This document shows positions 3,031 through 48,572 of a stretch of DNA of 64,000 nucleotides, one piece after another. How positions within the stretch are numbered: the first letter of the stretch is position 1; each line of letters opens with the position of its first letter. The translations under genes were made by a program, and so were the position numbers. A model generated the notes under the pieces. The model searched no databases and was not told the origin of the DNA. It saw nothing but the letters and a program-made list of their open reading frames with translations. This DNA comes from Membranipora membranacea. Lineage: Eukaryota > Bryozoa > Gymnolaemata > Cheilostomatida > Membraniporidae. The stretch covers positions 25,038,025 to 25,102,024 of the forward strand of contig OU612070.1 of assembly GCA_914767715.1 (NCBI GenBank), in the 5' to 3' direction.

Positions 3031-3136
3031 TGGATTCTTATTAAAAGGAAGCACTGCGCAAATGTTACTTTTTTATATTGATTCAACCACCACTTACAAT
3101 AAACCTCTGTATTGGTCTCTCATCTCAGTTGTGTCA

Positions 3137-14984: not shown

Positions 14985-15000
14985 CTTTCTTGCACCACTA

Positions 15001-18734: not shown

Positions 18735-18763
18735 ATCTAAGAGGACTGAGCTGTCAGCATACC

Positions 18764-19219
18764 CCTGTTTATGACAAAACAGAGGGTGGGCTGCCCCTAA
18801 AGAGGGACGCAAGTTGCCCGGAGTCCTCGTACTGAGAGTGTGATACATCCTAGTAGATAGAATGCATCCTAGAGGTGAGGCCATGGTGGACCTCTTAATC
18901 GTGAGTGTGCAGCAAGCTGCCAGAAACTGAAACAGGCACTAATCAGCCATTGGCCATGACACTTTGATCTTAGCCAGAGAAGCATACCCTGTTTATGACA
19001 AAACAGAAGGTGGGCTGCCCCTAAAGAGAGATGCAAGTTGCCCGGAGTCCTCATACTGAGACTGTGATACATCCTAGCAAGCTAGAATGCATCCTAGAGG
19101 TGAGGCCATGGTGGACCTCCTAATCGTGAGTGCGCAGCAAGCTGCCAGAAACTGAAACAGGCACTAATCAGCCATTAGCCATGACACTTTGATCTTAGCC
19201 AATAGGCCAAGAAGCATAC
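18764..19219 (-). repeat. Two tandem ~230-bp repeats carrying the U2 snRNA 5' domain
   Basis: Copies span 18,764-18,987 and 18,988-19,219 and are about 95% identical. Read on the minus strand, the 19,219 end begins 'GCTTCTTGGCCTATTGGCTA' and continues AGATCAAAGTGT, matching metazoan U2 snRNA stem I at 29 of 31 positions. The branch-point-pairing GUAGUA that should follow is absent (CATGGC instead), and no Sm site or the rest of U2 is recognisable. The other copy has lost about 9 nt within stem I. It cannot be a working U2; a U2-derived SINE-like repeat or ncRNA is the likelier reading. Confidence 0.75.
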
Positions 19220-23770: not shown

Positions 23771-26700
23771 ATGGGCAATTTGCTGGCTTCATGTGGTCTG
23801 AAGCGCAGCACCAAAATCGGTAGCACGACTGACTATCAATCGGATAGCAGTGACGATGCTACCGTACTACTAGGCAGAGGTAGTATAACAGCTCAGCAAT
23901 CTAGTCAACCACCAGTATCTGCAGGAGCTCGAGGTGAGTCAATCTATACAAAGAATAAGCTAACAAGAAAATAGTTCAGCCATTGCATTTTTTCACTTAG
24001 CACAACTGCTACATCTATCCAAAGGGTTTTTCAAGCTCATAGTAGTCAGCTGATAGTGAAAGCTGAAAAGCCGGTGTACTAGCATTGGGTTCATTGCCTT
24101 GATACCATCAAAAGATAATTAATGAGATGGCAGAACTGACTTAGATGTTCCTTTTACATTTGCCTTAGCCAGGCTAATACAATCAGACAGAGTTTACTGA
24201 TAGAAAATCATAATTTATGAAGCCTTTTAAACATTAGTCTGTATTTCTATTTATGTTATAATTTATTAATAGGGTATCATTTACTTTGACAGGAGGGCCG
24301 GTCTTCGGTACGGCCCACCCGATGCCGATGCAGATGACTATGATGAGCCCACCTACAAACATCGGTGGACTACCTGTGATCGCCCAGGACATCGATCACT
24401 TTCCTGATGCTCCAGCTAGCTATAGTGTAACACCGCTAGCATCAGGAACTGCCAGTAGCCGGCCTCCAGGTCAGCAGCAGCATGCCATGGGTTACCCCAT
24501 GGACTATCAGACTGCCTTCCTGACCCAGCATGATATGCAGTATGCGAACATGCTGGAGGCTGAAAATAAATCAGACGGACAACGGCGAAGACGACAAACC
24601 CGGTGTCGCCGCTCAACTCCGTCTCCTCCTCAACCCCATGGGTCGGAAGTGTCTCCCCAACCAATAAGGAGACCTTCAGAAGATGCTTTGGTAAGAAAAT
24701 CAAGACCATATAAATTTATTGAGACTTTGATCAACATTCATTTCTTATCCTACTATTTCGCCCCTTTGTGGTAGCAACTTCTTGGTGGCTAAATCAAAGC
24801 TCAATAAGTGAGTTTTAAGCGTGCAGATTTCATATTCGTGAGGCATCGCTGTGATCAAAACATATACCAGGCTTTGCCAATATCCTCAATCATATTTAAC
24901 TTGGTGATCTAGATGTTTTTAAACTTAGCTTGTAGTTCATGCTATCCTACTTGGACTTAGGAATCAAAGAGTGACATTGGGACAAGAGAGACAGCATTGT
25001 CTATAAAAGTCGTAAATTAGGAACATTTTGTGGTAGAGAAGAGTATGGCAAGGTCCCTAACTTGTGATCACTATTTTAATTGTAGTCATCGAGGAACTAC
25101 GAAGATACGCGCCGTCTTCCTGCACCTGAAAGTGTACTAAATGGTGAGCTTGCGGTTTTCATCCAGATTTATGCTGTCAATTACTCCTTGTTAGCTTTTC
25201 TCGTGACAAAAAAAAACAAGATGATCACAAACTGCATAATCCAAAGCTAGTTCTGATATTGCATCTTCAGCATTGCTTGTGTACAAATTCAATGACTTTA
25301 CAATAGCGAGCCTTCTTTCTTTTGTCTTATAAAGAAACAAAGAGAAGGTTATTACAATGCCTTGACAAAAATGTCCTAGGGTTGATAAGGATTTGAGTGA
25401 GCATGGCATTCTTGGGGCACAGTTTAGTTGAAAGTGAATTCAATTAATATTATTCTCATTTTATATGTCTTGTCTTATTTGTAATAGTGATGATATATTT
25501 GTGAAAATATGATGTAAGTAGATATTAGTGGATCAATTAAGAAATAGATAGCGCAGAGTTGCCCTCACGTAAAGATATTTTTTCAGTTATGAATCGTACT
25601 GTTTGTATTTCTCATTGTAGATAACAGTTTAGTACACAGGGAGGTGAAGGCGAGGGCCGATGATGAGGTTTACGAATCCGTCATATACTATTATGACGGA
25701 CCATCATCGGTGAGGATATCTTACTTGCCTTTCCGATTCAGGCCATTGAAACTCAAGCAGAAAGTTGGCATTTAATAACATTGATGCAATTCATATTCAG
25801 CACCCTAAAACTTCTACATCCCTTGCAAAAATCTTTCATTTCCCAACAGCGTATAACCGTCTTATAATAATTGATGATTTTTCCATGATACCGAAAGTGC
25901 AAAAGTGACTAAAGACTTTAAATGATGACCTTTCCTATCAATTTTGATATAATCTTTGTAACAAAATATTTTCTTTCAAACAGGCTAGCTTGCACCTGTG
26001 CTATCATGTTATCGTCATAAATAGCCCGCTAGATACATATTACACCAGCCTATAAACATCTATAAATATTGCTCACCATTATTATGTGAATATGATGACA
26101 ATTCTAATAATATGGTGACAGCTGGAATGTATACTTGTAAAATTCGAATTGCCTTCAATGTATTAACTATTAGAATATTATCTTCTGTACACAGGACCCT
26201 TCTAGACGCGTCAAGTTCCCTGAGGAGGAATTTACAGGTAAGACTGATAGTTATAGTTAACACTTTCAAGGAAAGTTCCTACAAACCTAGATTTCAAGTT
26301 GGTTAATATTAAGTATATATTCAGTGTATATTCAATCTATTAAGGATTATTCTAGTTAGGCTCGATCCTGCGGTGACCTAATTGATGCTCAACTTGTCAT
26401 GAGACAAAACTTATGGATCCATTTGAGGTGGTGTCACCAATTTTTTTACCTCCCCATTGTCACTTTAAACCGTCTGATAAGTCTGAATCCATAATACTCC
26501 GCTTGAGTTAAGTAGCCTGCATTGCTGCGATACCAAATCTTATACGATGGGAGCTGGGATTAGGTTGAGTGTGATTCACTGTAACTTTTGTTGTTCATGT
26601 TTACATTTTGCAACCTAATCAGTGTCACTCCCGTTTACTTACAGGTATTGATACTGAGAGGCAGACTCAGTATCAAGGCTCCATAAACCATGACGAGCAC

Positions 26701-29700
26701 CCGATGGGTGGGTACAGTGGAGCCGAATACCTGGTGGCTAATCCAGCATTCAGCTATTATCTACCAAGCAGTGCGGTAAGTTTATGCCTGTCAGTATGTG
26801 ATATAGTAGGACTTGATAGAGATGATTCCAACATGTCAATTGTTTCTCAAGTATTCCGGAGTTGTTTATATCAGGGTTTGGGTAGTCTAAGTGCTCAGAC
26901 TACAAGGCGCAGGGAGTTACCTGCGCCTTGTAGTCTTAGCACTTAGACTAGGGTTTGGGTTGTAATTTCAGCAGTAATACTAGAACAGTTTTTTTGAAAA
27001 TACCATTATTTTACATGATGTTCATTGATCTCAATGCCTTACCATACCAGTCGATAGTATTGTTTGACACAATAACAGTGATTGATAGACAAAAAAACAA
27101 CAATCAGTAATCAACGGCATTGTATTTTTGGACATACATATTATGATTCGCCAATTATTGGTTACATATTTGAGAAGTCATGTATCCATCTAAACATACC
27201 TGATACATCAGAGTCTAGCTAATGGTTATTCCTACACATTTGATCAACATGATGGATCCTAATATGATTATTATCATATTTTATGCTCCTGAGTAACCGC
27301 CCTTATATTACCACTGTAGTTGATAAATCATCTTAACCTGATTGTGACAATCCAGCGAAAGATCAACATTACTATGAACTAAATAATGCTGTTAAAAGGG
27401 CATCTAAGATAGTCATATTAATCTCGTACCATGATTGGTTTCATGCTCAGCCTAATACAACACACAGTGGTGCGCATGAATGAGTTGAGCACTGTTACTA
27501 GTTATGATTTTTTGCAGTTGTGCGTCCATATTACCCCATATAATTCTTCTTTGCATGTTTTCAGAGTAAGTTCCTACCCTCGACACTGGCTTGTCCAACA
27601 AAGCTGGAGCCACATCATGTCAAGCAGCTGCAGAAGACGGTGTTTGGAGCCGCAGTGACTGATGAACACCAAACGGTGTTCATCAACACTCAGCTAATTG
27701 ACAGGTTCACAAATAAGATTAGACAGGGATACTTTGCGATCAATATGGTGCCTCAACCATCTAATCTTAATGTGAAAAGGCTTCTGGACCAATCCATCAG
27801 CATCGATGTCCACCAAGACTCCGTGGACATGATGGAAGAAGCCGAGCTGAAGAGTTTTCGCTACTTCTTTGATAGACCCCACCATGTCAATATGGTAGCG
27901 ATATCTCAGCCAACCGGGACCGAGCCAGATACAGGAGAAAGAGACCTGATGACACAGGCGCTGAGTGCTCTTCAGCCCCAATCACCAGGTCTACTCCTGT
28001 ATGACAAAGAAGATGTCACAGCACACTTCAGATGGCTCGTGGAGGACCGAGAGAGGTTCATGTCGTGCTACTTCCAAAAGCTGCACAACCCTGCCGGCAT
28101 GACAGGACCTCTCAAGGCAACAGATTATGTTGCCGATTACAGAAGTCCTCCAGATAACGACATCAAAGAGGCACTGATGGAGTTATCTACAGTGATATAT
28201 CCTGGCGTGATGGGTGAAGCTAAGAGGCTCACCCATATCCAGCTGCAGCAGCTGGAGCCACGCCACAGTTTACCAACACCAGTAAATGTGATATATCACT
28301 GTCATACACCACAGTATGTACCTGACAGCAGAGTACGAGACAGGATCCTCACAGTACTATATGACTTATTGGCCAGGAACATCCCATACTTCCCTTGTAT
28401 CATCATAGTGACTGACAAGAATGACCAACCTGGTACGTTTAGTTTTCGTTACCTGCCTCAACATCCTCACCTTCCGAAAACTATTCTATCACCGCTGATA
28501 GACTGCCTTCCGCAAGATGCCAGTGTCATCACGTTAGCTTCTAGTTTTGAGATTAGTTGGGGCAATCTTGTTCCTGAATTCAGTACGCCTCAGATCATGA
28601 AACAAATGGTAGTACTGACCACAAGAGCTGTGGAGCTTGATGTCAAGATAAGACCACTTCCAATAGGACTGTTGGCCGACTTGGCATCCAGGGAGCTAGT
28701 AAGGCTGATTATCAACGTCAAGCAACCTAAGAGTGATAAATCTGCAGCAAAGCTTATGTGCTTTATGGTGGATCTGATTGAAAAGTCCTTTAAAGCATCA
28801 GCTGTAACAGATGACTCTCTACAGGCTTTAATGGCTATTGCAGAGTACAAACGACTTCAGAGGGGGCCCGGTGTTTTACTTGCCATACCCAAGAATCACA
28901 CTAGCTATACCTTCAACGACTTTCAGCTCTTTTATGTGAACGGGGAATCAGTTGCTATAAGTGATGTGGCCCTTCTCACGGAGCCTGATGACCATTTTGA
29001 TAACTTCAGACGCCGGCGAACAACATACCTCAAGTCTCTGTATGACAACTTTGATATCAATTATGCAGTTGCTCCAGAAACAACTGAACAGAGGTATCTG
29101 CTAGTGAGTAAAGGAATACAAATCGACACAGACACTGGGCACGGTATTGAGGAAATACACCAAATAGAGAGCCTGTATGAAGTATGCAAAACTCAGCCAT
29201 CAATAAGAGTTATCCTGAACTATGCAACCGGCGTCGCTCCACCAACCAGGAAAGACTGCAGGGTTCTGGAAGCTGCTATCTTAGCTGTGCTGTCAGTAAT
29301 GCATCCAGTCACTGCCGGTCAGCTTATTATTACTCCAATCACACAATGGCCGTCCACAATCTCAGACTTCAGGTTTGATTACACTGTGATGGGACGCCTG
29401 CTGCAGTCTTACAAATTTGGTGTTATTAAGCCTGGTATGGAGAAAGAAGTTATGCTTTTGGTGAGCAAGGCCTACCAGATAGATATGAAGAAATTGATAA
29501 TACCAGAAGGTTTAAAAGTGAGCAAGCTTTTCGAATCAACCATAAGGGTGCTAATAAATCGCCGAGTTGGTAATAAAACTGTGGAGGCAATGGCAGTAAC
29601 AGCAATACAGAGCATGCTCAACTCCCTGGACGAGATGACGGCATTTGATCCATATAAGCTTATGGCAAATGTGGTAAGAGAAGCCATGATGGCAATACAT

Positions 29701-32700
29701 CCTACTGTACCAGGTGTTATCATAGCAACTCCTAAAGAGTTCTGTGAGGCTGAAGACTACCCTGCAGACTTCTATCTACATTACATCAAAGGAGAACAAG
29801 TACAGAAATACGAGGATAATTTTCCTGACCTACTGGATCTACTGATTGAGAGCGACCAACCTCCGCTAATCCAAAAAGAACTGTATGTTGAGTATGACAT
29901 TCGTTATATTCCAGTGTTAGATCGTGCAAAGATGGTCACGCTTCTCGCACAATCAATTCTTCTGATATTGGATCATGATACTAAACTCAAGTTGGACACA
30001 TCTCATGCACAATCTTTGAAGCGAATCAATAGTCTACAAAGGCAAATCTCATATCTTGAAAAACCAATCATCAGAGTAGTTTTCAACCAACAGTTCCGTC
30101 ATACAGATCTATCAGCAACCATGGTGTCTGACATAGAAGATATGCTTCTAGAACTAATGCAGACTGTCAAACCAACCACACATGCTACAATCATCCTGAC
30201 ACCTAGAAAAACCCTTAGCACCGATCAAGCAACTTACTATTTAGATTACATTGTGCATGGAGATCTGGTGTATGAATATAGATCAGAGAGAATTCCATCT
30301 ACAGTTTTCGAAGCAGAGGAGCAGTCTGTCATGAGTAAAGTTATAGAGCCAGAACTGTCCGCTACAACTATTGGAGTCGACCAAATTGATAAAGAGGAAA
30401 CTGATAGTTGTAAAGTGAATATTGACAACACGTGTACGATATGTCTAAGACTGAAGGGTTTGAGAAACACCTCTAGCAGTGAGGAAGTAAGAAAGCAACA
30501 TATTGCGGAGGTTATCAACATCTTGGAGCCAGTCCTTTACACCCCTGATGTAGATGTTGTTAATAAAACGAACGGAGACCTCATACTGACACTGACACCA
30601 AAAAGTCAACTAAGGAATCCGCTTGCAATCGAATGTATCGAAACTCAAAGTCAGGAGAAATTTGACTATCTACTGAGCCAGTCACTAGATATGTCTAACG
30701 ATTATTATTCCAAAGAAATTCTACAAAATGAGCCAACAGATGGTCAAGAAGATGCAAGTAGAGTGATAAGAATCAATATTATGCTTGATACCACCGCCCA
30801 ACACAGAGTTTGTGATGTAGCTGAGGAGGCTCGCATGATGGAGACAATTATAAGGAAACTTCTCAAATGGGGACCGATACAGCATGGAACAGTGGTTGTT
30901 GCACCTTCAAACAGTGCGGACATAGAAGCAAAGCTGTTTTATATAGTTGACGAATCTTTGCTGGATTACGACATCAATCTAATGGAGAGGCCCCATCTAG
31001 AGTATATAAAATATATACAGAGAGATAGTATTGATATTCAAGGCGAAATCGACAGGGTGACCTTAGCTGAAGAAGAGTCCAAGTATGTCAGGGTTCAAAA
31101 CTGCTTTGAAAAAATTCCTATTGATCTTATAGTCAACAAGAACAAGAATGCGCCTCATGTGAACCTAGGTTCGGTGATTTCCCAATCCATTACATTGTTA
31201 TGGAAGGTCAAACCATCACAACCTGGCACCCTTGTTGTTACCTCTATAGACAGAAAGCAGTATACCTTCCAATTCAGATTTGATAACCCTCTAAGAGATT
31301 ACTCAATCAAGCTCCATCCTAAACCAGACCCTACCAAGCTTGGAGAGTTACTGGCCAATGCAGTGGAAGTGAAAAGTGGCGAGTATGGTAATGTTCACAC
31401 TACGGAGTCCCATAACGGAACGGGGATTGATATAATTAGACCTCCACTTCCTGTAGATGTGGTACTGATTGATGCATGTGATCCACAATCTAGATTGGTT
31501 CTGAGTCAAGAGCTGTCTGATGAGTTACAACAGATTCTCAAAACTACGAGACCAAAACAGCCTAGCACCATTATAGCTTCACTAACAGATACTCCACAAG
31601 GCTCCAGAATGAAGTTTATGTATGCCCCTGATTTCACGATGACTTCATACACCCAGCATGCGATTCCCAACAGTGAGGATCTTCAAAGCTCTCTGATGAG
31701 ATCAAGTAAACTAAGGACAGGTGACTATTCAATATGCGAAGTCATTCGCAAAGCAGAGCACGATTCTACTGTATCTACTTGGTCACCATATCACAGAGAA
31801 GTTTCCATATCAGTACTTGTTGATGGAGGAAGGGGCACAGACAATAAGCTTTGCCTACTAGCTGCACCCATTTTGAAGGCACTGAAAACCGTAGCTCCAT
31901 CTCAGCCTGGCATTTTGACCATAGACACAGTTGGAGATCCATTCAATCCCAAAATGAGGTATCTCGTCTCAGAACCAGAAGACAAATTTGTGCTGAATTC
32001 ACGGTGGGTAGACAAAGAAGAGGCACTTAACTTCATGGAGACAAGTTTTTCAATGAATGACCTAAGTCCTATGAGATACAATGAGCTAAAACAAGCAGAA
32101 GCTGAACAGCGGGACGTAACTCAGACTGGAGCTAGAGTACCCGTTAATCTTCTAGTTCATTCTGGTAAATCCCCCACACAGGCAATGTATGATATAGCGG
32201 TAAAAAACTCACTTCCTGTTCTAAGGGCTATTGATCCTAAAGTTCCTGGGTCCCTGCTGATAAAACGGTCGAGTAATACGGATGAAGGTGGAGCCCCCTA
32301 TGAGGCATTCTACAGTGTAAACCAAAAACCAACACTACATGCACTACTGAGGTTGTTTGATGCAAGTAATGTCAGAAACTTAGCCGATATACAATACAAA
32401 GCTCTGCCGGTGAGTTTTCTGGACTTGGAGTCACTAAAGGAAGCTCGTAGTTTGGTTGAGAGGCTTGCTATCTCGGCAACAACTAAGAAAAATCCTTTAG
32501 TGAGTGTCATTATGATGGATGGAATTGGCAGTCTACATGACAAGCTCTTACGAACTATTGAGGACTTGGTAGCTACAATTGATCCTAAAACACAGATATC
32601 TTTGGTAGTGGAACAGTTCAGAGGCTTTCCAGGTGTGAACAATGATATCCTGTTCTATCTGAGTGAGACCCCATCAGATTTCACTCGCCAGTACAGAGTT

Positions 32701-35700
32701 AAAGTCATTGAAGACTTTGAGAATTGTCTCAGAGCCCAGAACCAAACTATCCCTGTTGACATAGCTAACCCAGAGCAGTGCATTCCTTTGATCGACGGAA
32801 TGGAAAGAACTGTGAGATCAATAGTAGATATCTCAAAAGCAGTGGAGATGCAAATAGCCATTGAAAAAGAATTGATCCATGATACAACAAACATCACAGC
32901 ATTGATAAATTCGCTGTTGGTATCAATCAATCCTCAGAAGCCTGGCCTATGGTTCGTTTCTCAAGGAAACACGGGAGTCTACAGTATCGATTACGCAGTA
33001 AAGGAAGTGGGGTATGATTATAAAATGTCCTTTCTACCAAAGACTAATGTTGGCTGTGAGGTGGGGGCGATGTACCAAGTGAAATATGATATTAGAGATC
33101 GTCATGAAGCAGCTTTAAGGGAAGGCCTAATCTTAAACAGAGAAGATGGTGGCGCTGTATCAATAGATGTTCTGGTGATTGGAGGGTTTCCCGTCAACTC
33201 TGCAGGGCGTAAAGCTCTGTACTCGTCAGTAGATAGAGCATTAAACTCCTTACAACCAACAATATCAGCAAAGCTCTACCTCATGCCAGCAGCAAAGGAG
33301 AACTTTGATGTTCTTTATGATGTGACATCCAACGATGGCCTGAATGAAGACGAAGAGTCAATAATATATGAATCCCTAAACCCTCAATACAAGAGTTATA
33401 TCCCACAGAGTGAACGTGTTGTGGCTGCAGACAGAGGCTGGGACGAGGGCATGTTTAGCTCTCCTGTAGAGGATAACCGTGACACGGATGAAAGCGTATA
33501 CCAATACTATGACCAGATCCCGTCTGGCTCCAGGAGTCGGAGTCGTAAAAGGAGAAAATATAAATTAAGGTCCAGCCACTCAGTGAGCTCTGAGAGAGAT
33601 GATATTAAAGTGGCTACTGAGACGGAACTCTCACAGGCTGAAATAAAGTATGATACAGAACTCATAAAAGATGACACCAGTGATATAGAAAAGCTTCTGA
33701 TTAAAACCTACGGAGTTAGCTTGGATGATGACAACATTGAAATTCTCATCAAGGAGAGAGAGAAAGGAAGCTTATATACCACTAATCAGACTCCCAAAAT
33801 AGACATTATAGTACAAGAACAGGATAGAGTGATTGACATACATACGGATGCTGATGTACAAAAGTTATTGCGCAACGCTCACTTAACCAAACCAGGAATC
33901 GTCTATTTTGCTTTAGACGGGAGTAGAAAATACCTTCCTGTTGGATATACATCTATACCTGTTCTACTACCAAACGCAGCAGAAATATCTAAACTGAACA
34001 ATTCTTTGTCTGATGGCATTCCTGTGAAATGGGGAGAAAACATTGCTCATGAAAGTATAATGATTGAGGAGAAAAGATTCACAGAATCAAGCGAGTATAG
34101 TATTTCACCCAATGTCAGCATTGTTTTCAGAGATGCTTCTGGAAATCTCGTACCGCTTTCTGATGATATCAGGAACATATTTGGAAGAGAGCTCGCACAA
34201 GTAATTGAGATTGTGCACCCTGGGAGACCAGGATGCCTTGTTTTGGAACTGATTGACAACAATGGAGTAGAGCTGCCATCATACCACTATTCTGTCATTA
34301 AGAATTTCCAAGACTATACAGGTGCCAGCAATTTTGCCCCGGATTATTCGACAGCTGAGGATAATGCCGCTAATTATGAATACTATGAAGTGAGTTCTGT
34401 ACTCGAGTTGAAAAAGAAGAAAAGGAGGAAAGTGAGACGATCAAAAGTGATCAAACCAAACCTGGTATCACCAATTCACTTCAAATATTGTGACAACACA
34501 GAGCTACTAGCGCACCTGTGTAGAAAAGCCATGAATATAACAACACTGGAAGAAAACACAAAAGATACTATACAGGCTCGGAATTTGTATGATGTAAACA
34601 TTCAAGATCAGCTAGAGCCACCAAACATTATTCTAGGCTGGGCTCGACCTGACATACCTGCTGACAATGCAGGTCTATGTGAACTGCTTGATACTCTTTT
34701 GAGACGACTTGGAGTTAGCAAGTCTAACAGGCTGGAAGGTATAATCCTAGTATGTAGGGACTTGACGAGCTTTGATTCAATGAAGACATACCAGCTGTAC
34801 TTTATTGATGACCCGACAGCAGCACAGTATTTGGTTGATGTTGTACCAAACCCTCCTCCTTTACATCTCCAAGCCTGGATGGACAGATCGATCACAATAA
34901 ACAAAGCAAATGGAGAACTTATTTCCAGTTTACTCAAAGAAGCCGAATTTGAAACAGGAAAACAACCACATGCTCCACCGATCACTATTGATGTTGTTTT
35001 GAAAAACTGGCATCACGTCCATAACAGCGAACAGGTGCTCAAGAAAGTTCAGAAACTATTGCCTGTCATGGCACCTTCACTGCCAGGAACAATGATAGTG
35101 ACACCCATGCCTGGATCTGAAGACGGATATTCTTTCAATTACGTAGTCAACAACATCCGTGGAGATTATAAGATCAAGCACAGGGAGTTTGACGAGAAAG
35201 CCATAGCACGACTCATCAGTCAGAGTGTAAAAATAGGAGTGCATGATGCAGACCGTACCTATGAGAGGGTGAGAGAAATGGAACTTGATGCTGGGGAAGC
35301 TAGTTACCCAGTACCTATTGATGTAATAGTCGACTTTAAAGCAGCCACCTCTATCCCATACGACCCAGTTACCAGGTTTGTGGCTCCAGATACGCAGCAG
35401 TCCATTGCCGATGCAGCCTATGATCTTTTGAGTTGTTTCAAGCCAACAAAGTGTGGAACTCTCATTCTCACACCAAGATCAGTAGGGTTTGAGGCGTACT
35501 ACACAGTCAAAGTTCCAGATGTATACCAGATAATATTCGAAGCACCCAGAACAAAAGCTGAAATGGCGAAGCTGTTCAAACGAGCAATTGCAGTGCACCC
35601 AGATGATCCTGATACTCTGGAGAGAGTTATCACTACTGAGCGAGAATTTAACATCGATGCACACAGCGGGAGCTGCTACATACCTATTATTGTCATAATT

Positions 35701-38700
35701 AATACGGATGTTGATAGGCTGCCCACGGAAGATGAAGAAAAAGTGGCCTTAGAACAGATCAACGAAATATTGAGAGAGACAAAAACAAGTCTACCTGCAA
35801 CAATAGTTTTGACTCCGACACCAACCGCAACAGGAAGGAGCCAGAATTATGACTTTCAGTATGTCTTTGACTTTATGAACGATGACTATGAGCTGGAAGT
35901 TGTGGAAATGACCATGGATGACCAACTCAAACTTCTCGCAAAAGGTGAAAAAGTTTGTAGTAATTCTCCTGATTGGAGCATCTCTCGGAATATTCGCCAA
36001 AAGGAATTTCTTTATCCATTGGACAAGAACGATCAAGCAGTGATACAGGTGGTCTTTGGTGGGGAAAAACCGACCTCCGATGTATCTTACTTGAAAGTAA
36101 TGGAGAAAATACAGTCAGTTCTGAAACAATTGAAGCCAACACAGAGAGGCGTGCTTCTTGTGACACAGATCGACCCTGAAACATTTAACCTGAGCGGTGT
36201 CTATGTAGTAGAAAGCACATCAGCGTCTTATCAGTACCGTGCTGCTGAGGCAGACTACGAAACAGAGGTCTACAATCTGTTGCATGACCAATCAGCGAGG
36301 ATTAGTATTTCCAACATTACAGAAATCCAACAACTTATGCGCAACCAGCAACTTAATTACCTTGAAAAGAGAATTACAAAGAAAGTGAGTGTGAAACTCT
36401 TAATCAGTTATCAACACCACACTGAGGAGCAAATCAGAGAGGAACTTCAGGCAACGAGTAGAGTAATGAGAAACTCTGGGATCAAAGTTCCAGGTCTGAT
36501 GATAGTCGGTGGATATCTAGACGCAGAACGCAAATGGAAAAAGAAATATATATTCCAACCAGAAAAAATGCATATCAATACTGCTACAGATGTTGACCAT
36601 AGGCCGAATGGTCAACTCCCTGTAGGAGGACATGAGAATGCTAATATCATATATCTTCTGCGTACGTCACCTAGAAGAGATCTGAAGAAATTTTACACCC
36701 TAGACAAGGATAATCCTGCTGAGATGCGAAGCATAGCGAGAGCTATTCATGAGACTTATATTGAAACACAAATACCAGATCGGAGACAAACGCCGATAGA
36801 TATTGTGCGAAATGGCCCCGAGTCAAATTTATATAAGCAGGACAACGCTTATGGAGAACACTCTGATTGGATGGATGATATGTTGCACAGCAACATAATT
36901 GACAAAGTAACAGACATTGAAGTGAACTTTTCCATCATGCTACCAGAACATGAAACTATGACAGTTAACCAGAAGGAAGATGCAATCAAAGAAGTTAAAG
37001 ATTTCTTGAAAGATATCAAACTGAAAACTCCTGGCCATATCTTTGTTATGCCATCAGAAGGTCCGCTGGACTATCAGACAAAAATGATTTATAAATTTGT
37101 GCCAGCAAGGCAAACAGTGAATGTCGAGGACATTCAACAGGTCAGGGCGAAATCCCCGGAGACCAGTGATTATCAAGTGATTCTGAGAGATGATATCTCC
37201 AAACATCAATTTGAAGATATGCTTGGAAAGGCGATTTCACTCGAGAAAAGTGACGATCACATTTACCAGAAAATCAAAGATATCAACATGAGTCACACAT
37301 ACATCAGCCAAGCTGTCAATGAAGAGCTATCAGTCAAAAGTCATACAGGATCCCAGAAGCTAGGATCACACAAACGCCGTCGTAAAAGGAAGAAAAAACC
37401 AGTGACAACTGAGTTGCCTGTGAAAGCGTTAGCCACAGAGATGAAGAAAATAAGGCTGTCTAGCCCAACTCATCTTTTGCATCCTCCAAAATTGGACCAA
37501 CGCTTTCTGCAGCCAGATCGTGATGCTACAAACTACACTGTTTTAACAAACAGTCTAACACAATTACAGGAGGGTCTCACAACTGCAATGAAAGAGATAA
37601 CAGTCGAACTCCTAGACAAAGTAAGAATTGACCAACCAGGTAATTATGTTGTCAAACCAGAGTTCAGTATTGGGAAACAGCGGATAATGAGGCTCGATAT
37701 ATTCCAGACTGGAAGTGGAGAACTGCCAGGTGAATCTGGCTCAACACCAGCGGGCTTTAAGCCACAAATCATTGTACAAAGTCCAGACACCATGACCAAA
37801 CAAATAAGATTTGAATCAGCCAATGGCCTTTCCCAAGAAATGTATGAGCCCCCTAAAGGAGAACATCAAAATAATATGACTCCTGAAGTCAATGTCAGGC
37901 TTTCAGTTGTCATTAGTGAGTTAGTCTCACCCGAACATCAAAACAACATAAAAGATGACGTTGTGCGTCAACTTAGCAGGGCCAAACTACCAGAGTCAGG
38001 TCATTACCTGGTTATGCCTGAAATAGCAGGAACACAAACACAAAATGAAAGACCGCGGATTAACCTGAGCTTCTATAAAGCAGATGATGTTGATCTTGAT
38101 GACTATGTTTGTGTACAGGAACCTAAGTGGAACTCCAACGATCTGACAATCGTTGATGGTGGGAGTTCAATGATCAAAGAGATCCAGTTCAATACTATGT
38201 ACCAGCAGGATATCAAACTGGCATTGTCTATGGCTACTCCAGTCTCAATGGACTCTAGCCCCCGAACAGTAACACAGAACATTGCAAAGCGTGAACTTCA
38301 TGCCAGGCAAACGATGGAAAACATTGTAACACCTTCAACAACTGCCAAGTACATTCTGATGCATGTAGATGAAGAGATGATTGCGCCAGGAATGGAGGAT
38401 TACATAAAAGAGCAAACTATAAATCTCATTAAAAACCTGGATCAGCAACCCGGGCATTATCTGGTCAGACGAGACGTGAAACTTAGTGAGTCATCCCGAA
38501 ATCCGATTGTTACTCTTGTATTATCGACTGCCAATCAGGAGAAACGTCATCCGTCTTCACAGGGTAACATCAATATGACAAAACCAACTCAGGTTGCTTC
38601 AGAAAAGATCCTTGAGTTCAGCCAGATGGGTCCAACGGATATCCTTAAAAACTTAGCTAACTCAACACCAGTGTCAATAATGACAAATGAATTTAGTCAA

Positions 38701-41700
38701 ATAGCGGATAGCTCCTCAAATACTGATGTGCAACACCCTATAGAAGCACAAAACAATGCCACCTCGGTGAGAGCTGAAAACAATGCGCCAATATATTCAT
38801 CAGACACATTTGAAAAGGTGATAACCAAGCGGCCATCAGTCAAGAAGAGGATCAAGAGAATCAAGAGGGCCAAGACTAAAAGTCAGGTTTCTAAATTCAC
38901 CATCTTGCATGGAGCAGCGGAGACATTAGATCCTCAAAGTGAAGAGTTATGCCGTAATTTAATAGCAAAGAGGATTCAACAGGACGAATTCAAGCCTGGA
39001 GAATATCTTGTCAAGCCAGAAATTATTTCTTCAATGAAAGGACAAAAACCAGAAATAAAACTGCAATACTTCTTGGCGGACGCTGAAGATGCTGCAACTG
39101 CATTACCAGCTGATAAACCTGCATTCAGCGCAAAGAAGCTCATAGAGTTTGCGGAAAAGAATGACTCTACTGTTCAGCACCAACTGTCATCTTCTAAACC
39201 TGTAGATTTCATTCAGATTCACGTGACTGAGGTCCAGCGACAGAGAGCATCCTATATACTAGATGCTATGAACACCACAACAACAATCGAATCCTTATCT
39301 CATGATACTCAAAAGAGAGCACGATTCCTGCATGATCTTATGATAAGAATGGCGTTGAGTTTGCCGACCCCAACGTCTGATATCAAAGTTATTGTCAGGC
39401 AACCTACCAATGAAGCTAAACTACCTATAGATAACGCAGACATGAGAGCAAAAATACATAGCCTTCTCGCAGGCTTACAAATCAGGACACCTGGGACAGT
39501 TGTAGTCCAGGGAGCACAGTACTTCTTTCTGCCGGAGGATTTAACTGTGAATCCAGGAGTTCAGAAGCAAATTTACTCTGAAATGGAGGACACTGACTAC
39601 TCACTGAAAGATTACAGCATCGAGTTTGAAGATGCTGGTACAGATACAGACATGGTTCTTAAACATGGCTATATTTTAAACAGTGCAGATGCAGCAATCG
39701 CACAAGAAACATCTAGGGAAATCCATAGGAAGTACGTCAAAGTTGAGAATGCTTCAGATCTGTCTGCACCATTGGCCAGCTTATTACCAGAGGATCAGAT
39801 GAACATCGATATGCTGAATGCAATAATTGATGCAATGCCGGTGAAAGAAATCAAACTAAATATAGCCTGGAACGAGAAGCTGTGCCACTTAAGCCAACAT
39901 CTAATACAAACTTTAGCCATCAGGTGCATAGAGGATTATCCTCCCAAGGTACCAGGGACTATAGTTGTAAGTCAATCCGGGGCAACCAGTCCTGAACTGC
40001 ACTTCATAGCTCACGATGACACATTTCCAATGGGCTCCCAACAGAACTACTTCACAACTGGATCGCGCTTCACAACACAGCTACAACCAATGGACTCAGA
40101 TGCTTTCCAGACTCTACTATCAAAGGGTAAACCTTTATATACACAGGAGAGCCCTAACATTGAAGAGAATGTAGCCAGGATCCACAGAGAGTCATTTCAT
40201 GTGAAGCTCACAGATCTTGAGATAACTGACCAGCTGATAAGCTCATTGAGTCAGGAGTCCACAAAGGATAAAATTGCTCAGCTGGATCCCAGCTCTGCAC
40301 TTGAAACAGAACTCTCGATACAAGCTATAAATGAGTTATTCTCACGAGCCATAGAGAGCACTAAAAGGCCGAAGATTACTCGTGAAGAGTCTGAGATACA
40401 GAGAGAAATTAAATCTATTGTGGATAGAATTCAGCCTGTGACAGGAGGTACGCTCATTGTGAATGAAAACGAGGATGGTGAGACAACCTATGAATTTTCC
40501 ACTCTAACAAAATCAGATTTTGGTCTCAGAAAACCGTACCAGCGACATATCATTAGTGATACAGCCACCGAAGTGATGCACAGATTACAATCAGTATCTT
40601 TACCAGTGAAACCTGGTGACTACATTTCGAAGCAGATAGTCAGTGATCTTGAATCAATCGCGGAGGGAAAATGGAGACACCCCAAAGATGTGATTTTATC
40701 CGTGGTGTTGCCAGAAATGAAAGGTACATCCAAAGAAAAGGCGTTAGCTGCAGCAAAACAGTTATTAGACTCAATAGACCCGCAGTATCCTGCATTGCTA
40801 GTCCTACACCATACAGATACCAATGACAGCCATTTCAAGTTTGGCTATATGCTTGATGATGGTTTGGGGAATTACAAATTGACAGTAACCATCTCTAAGC
40901 ACGCTGAGCTAACTCAGCTTCTTGAGGAGTCAATTTATAATCAGGAAGAAATACTGCTGAATGACAACCAAGTCTACGGATTAAAATACCCACAAGTCAT
41001 GATTGCTGTGACTGTGATGATAGACGATCAAATAAAACTGAGCGGAGCGAGCATAGAAAGAGCATACAAACATGCCATCACTTCTTACCACCCATACAGA
41101 AGCGGAGTTCTCATTATGCTCGAGAGCACAGAAAAGGGAAATGATGCATTCCCTTACATTTCATTCAGATATATCTCTAAACCAGGATTGTCATACAGCA
41201 TAAGAGGGGTACCACAGCCTCCCGATGACTTGCTGAAGGTGATGATGAAGTTTTCACTACCTGTGTGCCTCGATGATCACTTCACCCAAAAGCGCATCAG
41301 GCAGATAGAAGACTCAATAGATTGTCCCGCGGAAAAACTGGAACTTATACCAATGTCAGTTTTGAACATGGGTACAGTAATTTTGTCCCCACAACAGTTG
41401 GCGACAGTTGAGAATGAAATCAGGGCAATTCTTACAGGCATGCAGCCTACAAGGCCCGCCACTATCATGGTGATGAATGATGGCAGCTACAGATATTCAT
41501 TGGATTGCACATTTGTTGACTTCGCAAACAGGAAGTCATATGCATCCACCTTACCCATCCTCAACAAAATGGCAAAGGATTTCAGACAAATGCTCAGTCT
41601 CACTGGAGGTGAAAATGACATCAAGAGAAGGTCAATAGAGTTTCAACAAGAACTGAAACAGCAAGAACTTATGAGCACGGTGATAAATAAGATGATGGAG

Positions 41701-44700
41701 ATAAAACAGGCAAAGAAACATTCACAGGTTTCAGTTGGGAGAATTTTGAAGGACTTCTCCAAGAGACTGAAAGCAGAAAAAAGAAAGTCAGTGGTTAGCA
41801 AATCTGAAAAGGAGGAGCCATTGAAAATAACCAAGTCCATATCTCAACAACCTGGCGGTGAGCACACAGCACAGAGTAAACCACAAAGGAAAGCTCATAA
41901 CTATCACATTGAGGCCCTACAAACTCCGATGCACACTAAAGTCAGAGAACTAATGGATAAAGCTATTGATGTGACGGATATCCAAAATGGATCTAACAAA
42001 GTAAGAGCAAGGCAACTAAACTTCACTTTTGAACCATTCCCGACGATAAAAGTGATCAGGAATATACCAGCTGCCGTGTTTTTATCTGCGATGGATACCA
42101 AAACAATGGAGAGGGACATTCTTAGAATACTAACAAAGATAGATCCAGCATCTTCAGCTACATTTATAGTGCATAAATCTCAGGCAGGCTTCACATATCA
42201 TTATCACATTGAGGGATCGAGCAAAAAAACTAAGATGGATTTGCAGTGTGCCGAACAGTTGACCAAGTTCAATAGGAAAGAAGAAATCATGATAGATCCC
42301 AACGAACTTCTACTGTCTGCTAAAACCATCTTCAGTGAACAGCTGAAAGAAATCATGGATCATTATGCTATTGATCCAACCATTGATGTGGTTTATGACA
42401 GTATTGACCCTACTATGAGACAGCAGGCTGCTCGAAAGAAGGCTCTGGAATTCCTAACTCACTCCAATATTAGAGTCTCCGGTGTGCTTTTCCTCACATT
42501 CAACGATAACGAACCCTGCATTTTCAGCTTTGCTGCAACCAATACCAGAATTAAGATATCAAACACCATGCAAGAAAGTCAGACAAAGGCTTTGCGATAT
42601 ACTCTAAATACAGTGCTTCATATGACTGCATATAAAGACCATTGGAGACAGGCCAGGGCTGTTACATTAGATCCAGAGAGCGGTGATTTTAAAGTACAAA
42701 TTGATGAAATGCACATGAGGAGCATAGCCATAGAGAGATTACCGTCAATCACTATACCAGTCAGTTTCGTAGACGAAGAAGAAGATGAGCAGAGCAAAGG
42801 TTTGTTCAATGACATGAAACCCTCTCTGAAGAAGATGATGGAAATGATTGATCCTCTTATGCCAGGGACATTGATAGTGTCCAAACATCCGATATTCTCG
42901 TACCAGTTTGTACCGTATAAAATCACCCAAGAAGCAGGACGGGAGAGAGTGAACTACCAGACAAACATTATCCCAGACAAGTCAGTGGGGGAAACTATGA
43001 ATGCAGTCAGTCACTGCATAGCTTTGAACCCTTATGTGCTGGAGCCTTTCCAAGCAAGGATAAACTTGAAGGAGATGGCTAAATTTGAACATAGTAATGT
43101 GATGGCCAATCAGCGATGTCAAGTTCTAATTCCGCACCACTCAGCTACAGCTGAGAGATTAGCACATGGCAGACATCAGGAGATATTGGAAAATATGTTC
43201 CAGTTATCCATTCCATATCATTGGTATGATGTATTAGTAACAAAGCCAATTGGCAGTTCGGATGCCACGCAAAGAATCAACTACCACACTTTACCATCAC
43301 TTACAACAGAGGCTAACTTCACGCCAAACTCTGTTTTACATGAGCAGTATGATGTGCAGTACCACCCGCCACCAAACCAGTGGATCATGATGGATATGGT
43401 GATTGGAGCGCATAAAGTTAATCCAGCATTGTGTAGTAGACTCGCCAAACAACATAGACCACAGCGACCAAGGTTATGCATCATTCTCAATCACTTACTA
43501 TCTGATGGGCCGCCTAATGATGATGAAAAGATAAAATTGGAGGAGGATATCTTAGCAATAGCAAATGCCAAATGCACTTCAGACTTTTGTATTATTATTG
43601 CAACTCCATACCATGACTCAAAGAGCGAGTCAGAGTACATCTACCATATAGCCGATCCGGTGAATACAGATTCGATAGATACAGATATTGCCTTATTCAA
43701 ATTTCATTCAAACAATGAGATTAAGTTCACACCAGTACCTAGTACGGCAGCCATGTTGAAACTAGTGTCATGTGGTGTTGAGGTGTCTGAGGTTGCAGAA
43801 CATTCTCGAATCACTGATTCATTTCACAAGACCCAAAATTCTCGGTGGAGAGGTACACGTGTGATTGTCAACCACAGAGGACCACACCTCAAGTCACAAG
43901 AGAAAACGATCATTGCAATGGCAGTGACCAACATCCTGAGACGGCTCGATCCACCAACAGATGGATATCTGATAGTTACTACAGCGGACCCACAGCAACA
44001 ACTTGGACCAACCACTCCAGCCTTTATCTACACACCTATGATATCACAAGATGTGACCAGTCTTAATGATATGATCCCTGACGTTTCTAAGAACATCATA
44101 ATCTCTGTTATACCCAAACTTTCCGATAGTGACATCCTGCTAGCAGCCATACAGTCAGTGAGGATTGAGTATCCAGTCACTGAACAGTCAGTGCAGGTCA
44201 TACACGAGTCGGAGAAGCTGATTACAAAGTCTAAGGATCGATATGTAGTCGTGAAAGTGATGCTTAACGAAGCATCCATTCTCAAAGGACAAGTGACCCA
44301 TGACTTCAAACAGATGTTTTCAAGGATTTGCAGCATCATTTCCAGTATCAAACCAACTAGAAGTGCTTTCCTCATCATCACACCATCAGAGTTTGTTGAC
44401 CAAAACAATTATGAGTATCACTACCTAGTAGCGGAACCTACAAGTGGTTATACCATCACACCAGCCAGCACCACATTAGCGGTGTCAGATCCAAAGGTGG
44501 TGTTTCATCCAAGGTTAGATAAAGTACGTGTTCTAGCGTGTGTTCGTCGAGGCGTACGAATAAACAAGCAGACTCAAGCAGCATATACCAAGATCAAGGC
44601 TCAAGAAGTTGAGTATGTGAAAAATCATCCTCGATCTAAAAACTACCAGACAGTCATCATTGACGTACCTCACAATACCAAGCGTCCCAGCCCACGTGAT

Positions 44701-46254
44701 ATTGAGACCATCAAGATAGCTTCAGACCGTATGATAGGATGGTTAGAACCAATTTGCAGCGGAGTACTAGTTTTAACCCCGCAGATTACTGATCAACAAC
44801 CAAAGTATGAGTATATGAATATCAGCTACACAGTTGGCTTAAACAATCACCATCTGCCAAAACTCAGTAAGCAACTAGACTTACTTTTGAAATCACGTGT
44901 CTCGAAAAGAAACAAGCCAGATGTGTCTCAATATCGCAGTTACAACCCTTACAATATTAAAGCATCACTGCTGCCAAATGCCCATGACATGATGCAACTG
45001 GTCACAAAGGCCAAATTGGTGAATGAGGTAACCCCATCAGTCCTCACAGAAGTACAACGTAGAGAGGTCATTGGGAACACACTATCCTCAGCCCAACCTA
45101 TAACTAACGACCGTCACAACCCAGTTGATATACGAGTCATTCTCAACACGCCTAAAAATGATAGAAGACTGTCTACAGGTAAATTGGAAAAGGTTGCTGA
45201 AGAAATTACAACCATCATACACTCATTAAAACCTGCTGTCCCTGGATCGCTTATTGTAACACCAACACATGGAGCAGGTCAGAGGGACTACCACTACTGT
45301 CCTGATGATCCTTTCTCTCTACATGTAGAGTCCACTTTGACTTTTGCAACAGCATTTTCGCAGGCTGAGAGAAAGGCGCCAGTTCAGGATCAAAGAGATG
45401 CAGACTATGAGTATCTGGTCAAACAAAATATCACATACAGACCCATACCGAGCGCACATGAGATGTGTCAGCTTGCTGTCACCTCTATACCTATGCAGGA
45501 CTCAGCTGAGATGATGAAGGTAACAGAAGATTTCATAAGCAGATATGGTGAACCAAAGAACCTTTCCGAAGACAACATACCATTACAGGTCATCTTCAAC
45601 CATTCAAACACAGAAGCAACTGAGAGTCATTTCAAAGAGGCTCACCTTCAAATGATGCAGCTCATTGTAAGAATAAAGACTCTCGGCCAAGGAACCCTTA
45701 TATGCACACCAAAACTGAACATATTCGCAGTCGAGGAGACACAACTGCTCTATGACTACCATTTCTCACCAGGATACTTGTTAGAAGATAGAACAAACAA
45801 GTCACAGACAAAAACAACAATAGCTGTACCTGGAAGGAGATATGATGTCGTCTACTCACCAAAACCAGCTGAACAGGACTTTAAATATGTCCTAAAAAAC
45901 AGCTGTCTCCTTGCCACTGATCCTAACAAAGCCTTTGAGAACCAAGAAAAAGTCACCAAACAAGAGAAATATGCAGCACATATATTCCAGTTTGGTGACA
46001 GCATCAATGTCAAGGTGTACTTTAATATTAGCAGCTCACAACCAATCCTGTCAGACAAGGAAATCAATGACATTCTATCAAATATCACAGGACTGCTGCA
46101 GTCAACCAAACCAACAAAGCAGTGTATTATTATAGTATCTAAGACTGCAGATGACCTGATCGAATATTACTTTCTTACCAACCCAACCACATTTATCCCG
46201 CCGCCTACCTCACCACCAGTATTTACACCGGTCCAGTTTGGAAGTCAACAATAG
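23771..46254 (+). CDS. Giant repeat protein, ~6,523 residues, N-terminally acylated type
   Basis: Exons: 23771-23933, 24293-24690, 25086-25143, 25621-25709, 26195-26237, 26645-26775, 27565-46254. Every junction is GT-AG and the phases chain cleanly to a single stop (TAG, 46,252-46,254). The protein begins MGNLLASCG: Gly2 with Ser at the sixth position after Met removal fits N-myristoylation, and the nearby Cys8 could be palmitoylated. Residues about 55-290 are low complexity (P, Q, M, S-rich) with a tyrosine cluster, EVYESVIYYYD. The rest comes from one 18.7-kb exon of about 45 diverged units. No transmembrane segment is seen. I recognise no homologous family. A membrane-anchored scaffold is a reasonable guess from architecture only. 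Partial copies lie on both sides. Confidence 0.9.
26883..26950. mobile_element. 68-bp fold-back insertion in intron 6 of the giant gene
   Basis: Arms at 26,883-26,913 and 26,920-26,950 (31 nt each, one mismatch, 6-nt loop 'gagtta') start with 'tagtctaagtgctcagacta' or its near twin. They are flanked by an exact 9-bp direct repeat 'gggtttggg' at 26,874-26,882 and 26,951-26,959. There is no coding capacity. It is a minimal inverted-repeat transposon or fold-back; the mobilising family is unknown. Confidence 0.85.
27565..46254 (+). other. Single 18.7-kb exon encoding ~45 alpha/beta-type repeat units
   Basis: Acceptor 'catgttttcag' at 27,554-27,564, then 6,229 codons with no stop. The recurring core is a hydrophobic strand of PIDVIV type, a helix of LxxIxxLLxxLxP type, the signature PxxPGTLIVTP, a YxFxYxV strand and a DYxI turn, followed by a linker with SVxI. 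Clear examples of the signature are at about 31,210 (PSQPGTLVVTS), 35,072 (PSLPGTMIVTP), 42,856 (PLMPGTLIVSK) and 45,234 (PAVPGSLIVTP). Between 34,980 and 36,390 successive units are 112-122 residues long; the overall average is near 138 because of insertions, notably at 37-39.5 kb. Four strongly basic clusters interrupt the array: about 33,530-33,570 (SRSRSRKRRKYK), 34,408-34,450 (KKKKRRKVRRSK), 37,368-37,400 (HKRRRKRKKK) and 38,836-38,880 (KKRIKRIKRAK). Two of them follow Tyr-rich motifs (VYQYYD, YEYYE). Confidence 0.85.
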
Positions 46255-46658
46255 ACAACCTCAACATCCTACCCAACAATACTGGTATGCTCGACTATTT
46301 CAGTTTGATTCCATGCTAATAGGTCATATCAATGTGTATCCCACAATGCAATTCTCTGACATTCCCAGTGAGATCAGGTTACAATAATAAATGTGACCTC
46401 AGCCTGATCTACCTGGTAACTCTAGGTTAAATTGCATTGTGGGGATTGCCGTACCAATACATAATAAATCACCCTGATTGATAGGCCTCTATGTAAAGAC
46501 GAATTAGTTCATCTTAATTGGCTACAAACACCATTTACTCGGTTTCAGGGAACTTCATAATGTAAAGTTTAGTACTTGGCTCCTTCAGCAACTACACAAT
46601 GAAGCCCGCCAAAATGGATGAGCTGGAGTTGAACCAATAATTATGTTTGTAGATAATT
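46255..46658 (+). other. 3' untranslated region of the giant gene
   Basis: Contains AATAAA at 46,386-46,391 and again at 46,463-46,468 as candidate polyadenylation signals. Segment 46,340-46,443 is a fold-back (CCCACAATGCAATT ... AATTGCATTGTGGG, with a second inner pair, agatcagg ... cctgatct). The whole region recurs after the two pseudogene copies at 47,615-48,017 and 48,170-48,572. Confidence 0.7.
46340..46443. repeat. 104-bp fold-back in the 3'UTR, present in three copies
   Basis: Terminal 14-nt perfect inverted repeat plus inner pairing. Equivalent copies lie at 47,700-47,803 (right arm mutated to ATTGCATGGCGGG) and 48,258-48,361. In RNA it would form a long hairpin surrounding the AATAAA at 46,386. 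A MITE origin is possible, but I see no clear target duplication. Confidence 0.7.
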
Positions 46659-46670
46659 TGGCTGTCTTGG

Positions 46671-48017
46671 TGATCCTTTCTCTCTACACTTTGACTCTTG
46701 CAACAGCATTTTCGCGGGCTAAGAGAAAGGCGCCAGATCAGGATCAAAACGGTGCATAATATGAGTATCTGGTCAAACAAAATATCACATACAGACCCAT
46801 ACCGAGCGCACATGAGATGTGTCAGCTTGCTGTCACCTCTATACCTATGCAGGACTCAGCTGAGATGATGAAGGTAACAGAAGATTTCATAAGCAGATAT
46901 GGTGAACCAAAGAACCTTTCCGAAGACAACATACATTTACAAGTGATCTTCAACCATTCAATCACAGACCCAGAAGCAACTGAGAGTCATTTCAAAGAGG
47001 CTCACCTTCAAATGATGCAGCTTATTGTAAGAATGAAGACTCTCGGCCAAGGAACCCTTATATGCACACCAAAACTGAACATATTTACAGTCGAAGAGGC
47101 ACAACTGCTCTATGACTACCATTTCTCACCAGGATACTTGTTAGAAGATTGAACAAACAAGTCACTGTCAAAAACAACAATATCTGTACCTGGAGGGAGA
47201 TATGAGGTGGTCTTCTCACCAAAACCAGCTGAACAGGACTTAAAATATGTCCTAAAAAACAGCTGTCTCCTTGCCACTGATCCTAACAAAGCCTCTGAGA
47301 ACCAAGAAAAAGTCACCAAACAAGAGAAAGATGCAGCACAAATATTCCAGTTTGGTGACAGTGTCAATGTCAAGATATACTTCAATATAAGAGGCTCACA
47401 ACCAATCCTGTCAGACAAGGAAATCAATGACATACTATCAAACATCACAGAACTGCTGCAGTCTACCAAACCAACAAAACAGTGTATTATCACAGTATCT
47501 AAGACTTCAGATGAATCAATTGAATATTACTTTCTTACCAACCCAACCAATTTACTCTCGCCGTCTACCTCACCGCCAATATCTACACCAGTCCAGTTTG
47601 GGAGTCAACAATAGACAACCTCAACATCCTACCCAACAATACTGGTATGCTCTACTATTTCAGTTTGATTCCATGCTTATAAGTCATATCAATGTGTATC
47701 CCACAATGCAATTCTCTGACATTCCCAGTGAGATCAGGTTACATTAATAAATGTGACCTTAGCCTGATCTACCTGGTAACTCTAGGTTAAATTGCATGGC
47801 GGGCATTGTCTACCAATACATAATCCATCACCCTGATTGATAGGCCTCTATGTACAGGCCAATTAGTACATCTTAATTGGCTACAAACACCATTTACTCA
47901 GTTTCAGGGAGCTTCATAATGTAAAGTTTAGTCCTTGGCTCCTTCAGCAACTACACAATGAAGCCCGCCAAAAATGGATGAGCTGGAGTTGAACCAGTAA
48001 TTATGTTTGTAGATAAT
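46671..48017 (+). pseudogene. Tandem duplicate B of the giant gene's 3' end
   Basis: Matches 45,305-46,658 closely, by eye in the mid-90% range, including the 3'UTR. It starts inside the last exon with no acceptor or start of its own. An 11-bp deletion near 46,695, an in-frame TAA ('ggtgcataatatgag', about 46,753) and a TGA at 47,150 (where the parent has AGA) break the frame into pieces. The open stretches 46,817-47,152 and 47,207-47,614 are relics, not genes. Confidence 0.9.
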
Positions 48018-48572
48018 GATAGAAGAGTGCCTACAGGTAAATTGGAAAAAGCTGCTGAAAACATTAAGACCATCATACACACATTAAACCTACTGTCCCT
48101 GGATCGCTCATCTTAACACCAAGACACGGAGCAGCAATATTTACACCGGGCCAGTTTGGAAGTATTCATTAGACAACCTCAACAACCTACCAAACAATAC
48201 TGGTATGCTCTTCTATTTCAGTTTGATTCCATGCTTATAAGTCATATTAATGCGTATCCCACAATGCAATTCTCTGACATTCCCAGTGAGATCAGGTTAC
48301 CATAATAAATGTGACCTTAGCCTGATCTACCTGGTAACTCTAGGTTAAATTGCATTGTGGGCATTGTCGTACCAATACATAATCCATCACCCTGATTGAT
48401 AGGCCTCTATGTACAGGCCAATTAGTACATCTTAATTGGCCACAAACACCATTAACTCAGTTTCAGGGAGCTTCATAATGTAAGATTTAGTCCTTGGCTC
48501 CTTCAGCAACTACACTATAGAGCCCGCCAAAAATGGATGAGCTGGAGATAAACCAATAATTATGTTTGTAGA
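48018..48572 (+). pseudogene. Tandem duplicate C of the giant gene's 3' end, internally deleted
   Basis: Begins with a match to 45,160 ('gatagaaga.tg.ctacagg'). After about 120 bp it jumps to the equivalent of 46,220 ('tatttacaccgg.ccagttt'), so about 950 bp is deleted. It ends with a third copy of the 3'UTR. The junctions of copies A/B and B/C both lie just after 'atgtttgtagataat'. Confidence 0.85.

Follow-up and report, generated by a model that had tools for sequence, protein, structure and literature searches.

Structure and conservation of the gene

A 64,000-nucleotide stretch of chromosome 6 (C6) of the bryozoan Membranipora membranacea, here called the window and located at C6:25,038,025-25,102,024, carries on its forward strand, at positions 23771-46254, a gene whose last exon alone spans 18,690 bp and encodes a long array of diverged repeat units. 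The comparisons given below establish this gene, referred to as copy A, as a real protein-coding gene and as one of three intact members (copies A, B and C) of a chromosome-6 family. Its product may be a cytoplasmic, membrane-anchored giant scaffold composed of many non-equivalent binding domains, a function suggested by the features of the sequence and given a probability of about 0.45.

The seven phase-consistent exons proposed for copy A in an earlier note, made from the letters of the DNA alone, prove exact. All are on the plus strand and read in one frame, which joins to 6,523 codons followed by a terminal stop and corresponds to a product of ~737 kDa; no stop occurs across the joins, and the internal exons are preceded by AG and followed by GT. 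Exon 1 (23771-23933) is open, supplies the start codon and the sequence MGNLLASCG, ends at the donor GTGAGT and is conserved in copies B and C. Exon 2 (24293-24690) encodes an N-terminal region which by eye is rich in Pro, Gln and Met, and in copies B and C it is continuous with exon 3, with no intervening intron. Four short exons follow, namely exon 3 (25086-25143), exon 4 (25621-25709), exon 5 (26195-26237) and exon 6 (26645-26775). Exon 7 (27565-46254, stop codon at 46252-46254) contains the repeat array and exactly the 6,229 open codons first reported, within an open frame which extends from stop to stop from 27,544 to 46,254. The remaining five frames of this exon are open for at most 79-134 codons, and the longest forward-frame run in 50 shuffles of its bases is no more than 171 codons; the chance of 6,229 open codons at its base composition is about 10 to the minus 170. 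To our knowledge this exon is among the longest coding exons that can be named; titin, AHNAK and MUC16 have giant exons of ~17-22 kb.

Copy B (C6:28,295,807-28,314,670, plus strand) and copy C (C6:28,500,610-28,519,470, minus strand) have open frames of 6,288 and 6,287 codons, respectively, and together with their 5' exons encode 6,569 and 6,548 amino acids. Both are open end to end, with conserved 5' exons and with the splice pattern of copy A save for intron 2. The paralogs are colinear, and their protein identities are 81.3% (A-B), 81.5% (A-C) and 96.0% (B-C). Judged from the synonymous divergence (dS), which is 0.049 between B and C and 0.29 for copy A, the B-C duplication is the more recent and copy A branched off earlier. 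A retrocopy origin of the full copies was rejected, because B and C contain introns.

The frame of exon 7 is a maintained protein and not a chance frame, because its ratio of non-synonymous to synonymous substitution (dN/dS) is low in all pairs, substitutions are in excess at third positions and indels preserve the frame. The dN/dS values are 0.34 for A-B (95% bootstrap interval 0.31-0.37), 0.33 for A-C (0.30-0.36) and 0.37 for B-C (0.31-0.45), and all 13 exon 7 blocks of the A-B comparison (500 alignment columns each, the last shorter) lie within 0.21-0.57. Between A and B, substitutions at codon positions 1, 2 and 3 number 623, 527 and 1146. Indels in exon 7, counted without end gaps and the last 200 columns, are in multiples of three in 30 of 30 cases (A-B), 29 of 29 (A-C) and 1 of 1 (B-C), compared to only 18 of the 67 A-B indels in the upstream region of introns, short exons and flank, where the other 49 are not. 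Selection on protein, which the earlier note had deduced from the length of the frame and proposed to check by dN/dS, is thus confirmed by a comparison between paralogs on the same chromosome. These selection tests, together with the three open copies, rule out a chance frame. The idea that the gene is non-functional, being either open by chance or a recently dead copy, gains something from the dead partial copies of the family, yet it is contradicted by the same tests and its probability is close to negligible.

The exact C-terminus of copy A is uncertain, because copies B and C read 44 residues past its stop; the protein may be longer, or spliced at this end. Two of its introns also differ from those of the paralogs. 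Intron 2 (24691-25085) is absent from both, so that either copy A gained it or the ancestor of B and C lost it. Intron 6 contains a 68-base inverted repeat (26883-26950, 91% complementary), which falls in a stretch that is gapped in copies B and C and may represent a small mobile element.

The repeat array

A unit profile of 112 positions, iterated from 15 hand-picked segments, recovers 36 units of ~114 residues in exon 7, each scoring at least 13.6 bits, whereas the same profile gives nine matches, the best at 5.4 bits, in a control set of 80 shuffles plus the reversed protein (81 sequences). Because this full profile was trained on the same protein, a profile from one half of the array was also run on the other half. 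In this split-half test 30 of the 36 units are found again above every control match of the same half-profile, subject to a mild leak, in that the half-profiles share a column alignment built from all units. They comprise 16 of the 17 second-half units and 14 of the 19 first-half units (best controls 4.1 and 4.7 bits, respectively); four further first-half units are matched under the control-exceeding level, and one second-half match (3.9 bits) lies outside the 36 units. Each half of the array thus serves to recognise units in the other, which is the mark of a single-family repeat array. The strongest stretch is a run of four consecutive units at 34939-36333 on the plus strand (exon-frame residues 2466-2930), which score 59-74 bits each, with core spacings of 123, 114 and 117 residues.

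The units are highly diverged. Their pairwise identity averages ~16% and reaches at most 32% over the 552 pairs that share 50 columns or more, compared to 6% when residues are shuffled within rows. Identity is 17% at lag 1 and 15-17% at lags 2-12; adjacency thus adds very little to the similarity of two units, and the array shows no sign of recent expansion or homogenisation. The view of the array as old and maintained holds well here, with units so dissimilar to one another in paralogs that are colinear and ~81% identical. The core spacing is commonest at 113-118 residues, and several inter-unit gaps measure about two or more spacings, so that an original number of ~45 units is plausible. A profile-profile comparison of 13 gaps gives three weak traces (14.5, 20.9 and 31.1% probability, compared to at most 1.7% in shuffles). 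Of the ~45 diverged copies centred on PGTLIVTP that had been claimed, 36 are thus recovered by the profile, and the total, with weak traces in three of the 13 gaps, is unproven.

From the composition of its columns, we infer that each unit is a small alpha/beta domain. It would begin with a strand of alternating hydrophobic residues (columns 15-21) and an amphipathic helix (columns 34-49), followed by a KP..PGTLIVTP turn and strand (columns 50-61), an F.Y.V strand (columns 69-75), a DY.I strand (columns 81-87) and a second helix (columns 93-104), an assignment based on averaged residue propensities and the hydrophobic pattern and not on a structure prediction. Conservation is strongest in columns of hydrophobic residues, proline, glycine or tyrosine, which suggests a structural or binding domain rather than a catalytic one. 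The other residues present in at least half of the occupied rows are Glu in column 1 (7 of 12) and column 3 (15 of 20) and Ser in column 105 (8 of 16), all near the thinly covered ends of the unit.

Conservation between the paralogs is highest in the core columns of the unit. In 20 core unit columns, picked from the profile by the analyst, 589 of 674 cells are identical between A and B; the corresponding numbers are 1,789 of 2,210 in other well-filled unit columns and 2,281 of 2,856 outside the units. Across 96 columns, A-B identity falls as variability within the array rises (correlation -0.37, p 0.0002).

Partial and decayed members of the family

Searched with DNA from the beginning of exon 7, the genome yields at least 35 matches, all on C6, consisting of copies A, B and C and 32 partial ones; with DNA of exons 1-2 it yields at least 34, again all on C6, of which 31 are partial. 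With DNA from the middle of exon 7, the three copies themselves are the only matches. Protein searches with three pieces of exon 7 return copies A, B and C together with a repeat-to-repeat match in B, a broken 3'-end copy beside A and four short fragments. On the minus strand at C6:27765001-27788500 (27.77-27.79 Mb) there are several repeats of exons 1 and 2, some of which have stops or frame breaks, and downstream of this array the repeat region is represented by no more than a weak trace (E 0.013).

Similar remnants are present in the window; the three partial copies given here by coordinates are on the plus strand. A tandem partial copy of the 3' end of the gene (45297-46657) occupies 46662-48017; it is 92.5% identical to its source, and its frame is broken, with one TGA and one TAA. 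A second, shorter 3'-end copy (of 46214-46659) follows at 48132-48578 with 91% identity. The beginning of exon 7 (27682-28181) is copied in part at 2570-3034, with 77.5% identity, and pieces of the 5' end of the gene occur near 0.2-3.0 kb. As judged from these copies, the family is one that is being born and is dying, with three intact members and many partial or decayed ones.

Comparison with known families and giant proteins

The repeat unit had been said to resemble nothing that could be named, and this agrees with the lack of a convincing match in Pfam, NCBIfam, PHROGs, PDB sequences and a set of 5.8 billion proteins. No Pfam-A family matches exon 7 (6,236 residues) at E<=10, and the N-terminal 361 residues give at that level only DUF3123 (E=0.21, under its cut-off). 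When 32 of the 36 units were scanned singly, 19 Pfam families appeared, each from one unit (best E 0.0028), and were taken as chance. NCBIfam gave no match, and a single PHROGs match (0.039) was likewise attributed to chance. A sequence search of PDB sequences found none at E<=1; profile matches to seven distinct sequences (EcoRI, colicin Ia, OmpA) at E 0.45-1.9 were regarded as chance. In the 5.8-billion-protein set, residues 1-5000 of the exon frame returned nothing at E<=1e-3, and neither did the 32-unit alignment or the three-paralog alignment at E<=1, in searches whose length limits admitted short proteins only. This set is apparently without the proteins of this animal, because copies B and C were not returned by the first of these searches, the only one whose length limits admit them; its null result says little on animals, and absence of the family elsewhere is not shown. 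One 467-residue piece found no relative in virus and prokaryote collections, and Rfam gave nothing at gathering thresholds. In the open-access literature, searched by title and start of abstract, no such bryozoan protein is found among the matches listed, which is no proof of absence from print.

Several giant proteins share parts of this plan. Titin (connectin) and other giants of tandem domains are built from a great many small domains strung in a set order, which is also the arrangement here, yet the tandem Ig or FN3 domains of such proteins were found neither in the Pfam scan of exon 7 nor among the 19 single-unit families, and Pfam detected no kinase or spectrin domain. The spectrin or plakin repeats and actin-binding CH domains of the spectrin and plakin giants are equally missing from the Pfam scans. 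Giant scaffolds of the Bassoon type have a myristoylated N-terminus, and copy A resembles them in size and in its predicted myristoylated start; it differs in carrying a repeat array, in which Pfam named no domain.

The closest likeness is one of gene layout. In a published description, AHNAK2 comprises no fewer than seven exons, of which six are small and one measures ~17,559 bp, and encodes 5,795 amino acids with 24 repeats of 165 residues, the repeats of AHNAK being of ~128 residues (PMC10682155). Copy A has the corresponding six small exons and one of 18,690 bp, with 6,523 amino acids and ~114-residue units, and so shows the single giant coding exon and several small 5' exons by which, in the same description, the AHNAK family can be recognised. 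This likeness concerns layout as described there, and the PDB sequence searches gave no match. The units of copy A differ in being only ~16% identical to one another. Because the N-terminal PDZ domain of AHNAK was sought with Pfam (E<=10) and not found, the protein is not filed as AHNAK, and the resemblance is one of plan, not of proven descent.

N-terminus and basic patches

All three copies begin with MGNLLASCG, which includes a nearby cysteine. By eye we take this start to fit the N-myristoylation pattern, in which Met-Gly is followed by a permissive sequence, and the modification is accordingly a prediction. Among the 19-residue stretches of copy A, the highest mean hydropathy is 1.82. The stretch concerned belongs to a unit's helix-turn-strand core and includes His and Pro; it is therefore not read as membrane-spanning, and copy A appears to have no convincing transmembrane segment. 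Inspection by eye, with no predictor run, reveals no signal peptide, and a secreted adhesin was rejected on this ground.

Basic windows, defined as at least eight K/R in 12 residues, number 21 in copy A, compared to at most six in any of 300 shuffles. They include four basic patches, all on the plus strand, which sit between units by midpoint. Those at 33529-33573 (exon-frame residues 1996-2010), 34402-34455 (residues 2287-2304, the first of which touch a unit end) and 37357-37410 (residues 3272-3289) are kept in copies B and C; the patch at 38839-38880 (residues 3766-3779) is only partly kept.

Proposed function and alternative explanations

The encoded ~737-kDa protein consists of a short head followed by dozens of diverged ~114-residue units. 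It would stay in the cytoplasm, where N-myristoylation, with a cysteine close by, would tether it to a membrane, and its string of non-equivalent domains, some of them separated by basic patches, could serve as an extended scaffold or tether with a distinct binding role for every unit position. Position-specific roles are favoured over a bulk spring, because the units differ from their neighbours yet hold the same position in the paralogs. The mode of working may be that of the giant-exon scaffolds AHNAK and AHNAK2, with no common ancestry implied. A broader proposal is that the units form a domain family, possibly a fold, which is restricted to bryozoans and strung dozens of times in one exon, so that the membrane-anchored scaffold would be an independent invention of the AHNAK type; this we hold as a tentative and rather doubtful idea. 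As for the earlier picture of a membrane-proximal scaffold or adhesion-plaque-type protein, the first term draws support only from the myristoylation-like N-terminus kept in three copies, and nothing specific points to the second.

Several observations weigh against a membrane-anchored scaffold. The myristoylation pattern is short and was applied from general knowledge, and no interaction domain was recognised in the Pfam scans of exon 7, the N-terminus and single units. The hydropathy of 1.82 exceeds the value of 1.6 often applied as a cut-off for membrane spans. Exons 1-6 appear less constrained than exon 7 (dN/dS 0.52-0.71 on 266-284 codons; dS is also lower), and the many partial relatives, several with stops, indicate that members of the family decay readily.

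Other explanations start from the same data. The unit may belong to a known domain superfamily which has diverged past sequence recognition, in a giant protein common to many lophotrochozoans and missing from the databases searched. The composition of the 5.8-billion-protein set and the short-protein limits of two of its searches leave room for this, and the failure of Pfam-A, PDB, NCBIfam and PHROGs to give a convincing match speaks against it; we regard it as unlikely, though deserving of serious attention. A mechanical or length-ruler protein similar to titin, in muscle or another contractile or elastic structure, would employ the tandem domains as a long rod that bears or measures load. 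The fixed, non-homogenised order of the domains and their near-constant spacing of 113-118 residues within sub-arrays would suit such a rod, which is nevertheless improbable: Pfam reveals no Ig, FN3, kinase or other muscle domain in exon 7 or in the N-terminal 361 residues, and a myristoylated start would be unusual for a sarcomere ruler. The duplicated and fragmented copies could instead be the signature of a fast-turnover family serving self-recognition, immunity or another conflict function. The at least 32 matches to the start of exon 7 and at least 31 to exons 1-2 beyond the three full copies, all on C6, and the decayed 5' arrays at 27.77-27.79 Mb are in line with such turnover, yet with A-B dN/dS between 0.21 and 0.57 throughout exon 7 no block is positively selected, and no recognition domain is found in Pfam, which makes a conflict function quite improbable. 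The cytoplasmic scaffold is thus preferred among these readings.

Bryozoans are a phylum with few gene studies, and their cell biology is little studied. With three intact and many decayed copies, the maintenance of a 6,229-codon frame becomes open to study, as does the question of a convergent origin of giant-exon scaffolds. The unit itself is a candidate for a new Pfam entry.

Other features of the window

Further features are found on both sides of the gene. On the minus strand, an exon at 14781-15104 codes for an RRM domain (Pfam E 1.8e-7) and resembles lark/RBM4, and one at 57528-57794 resembles a Major Facilitator transporter under the Pfam cut-off (E 2.7e-4). An open frame of 253 codons, from stop to stop, lies at 53757-54518 on the same strand, with no Pfam match at E<=0.01. 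At 18756-19201, within the 2-kb bin of highest GC content apart from the giant exon, a sequence of ~221 bases occurs as two adjacent direct repeats with 94.6% identity.

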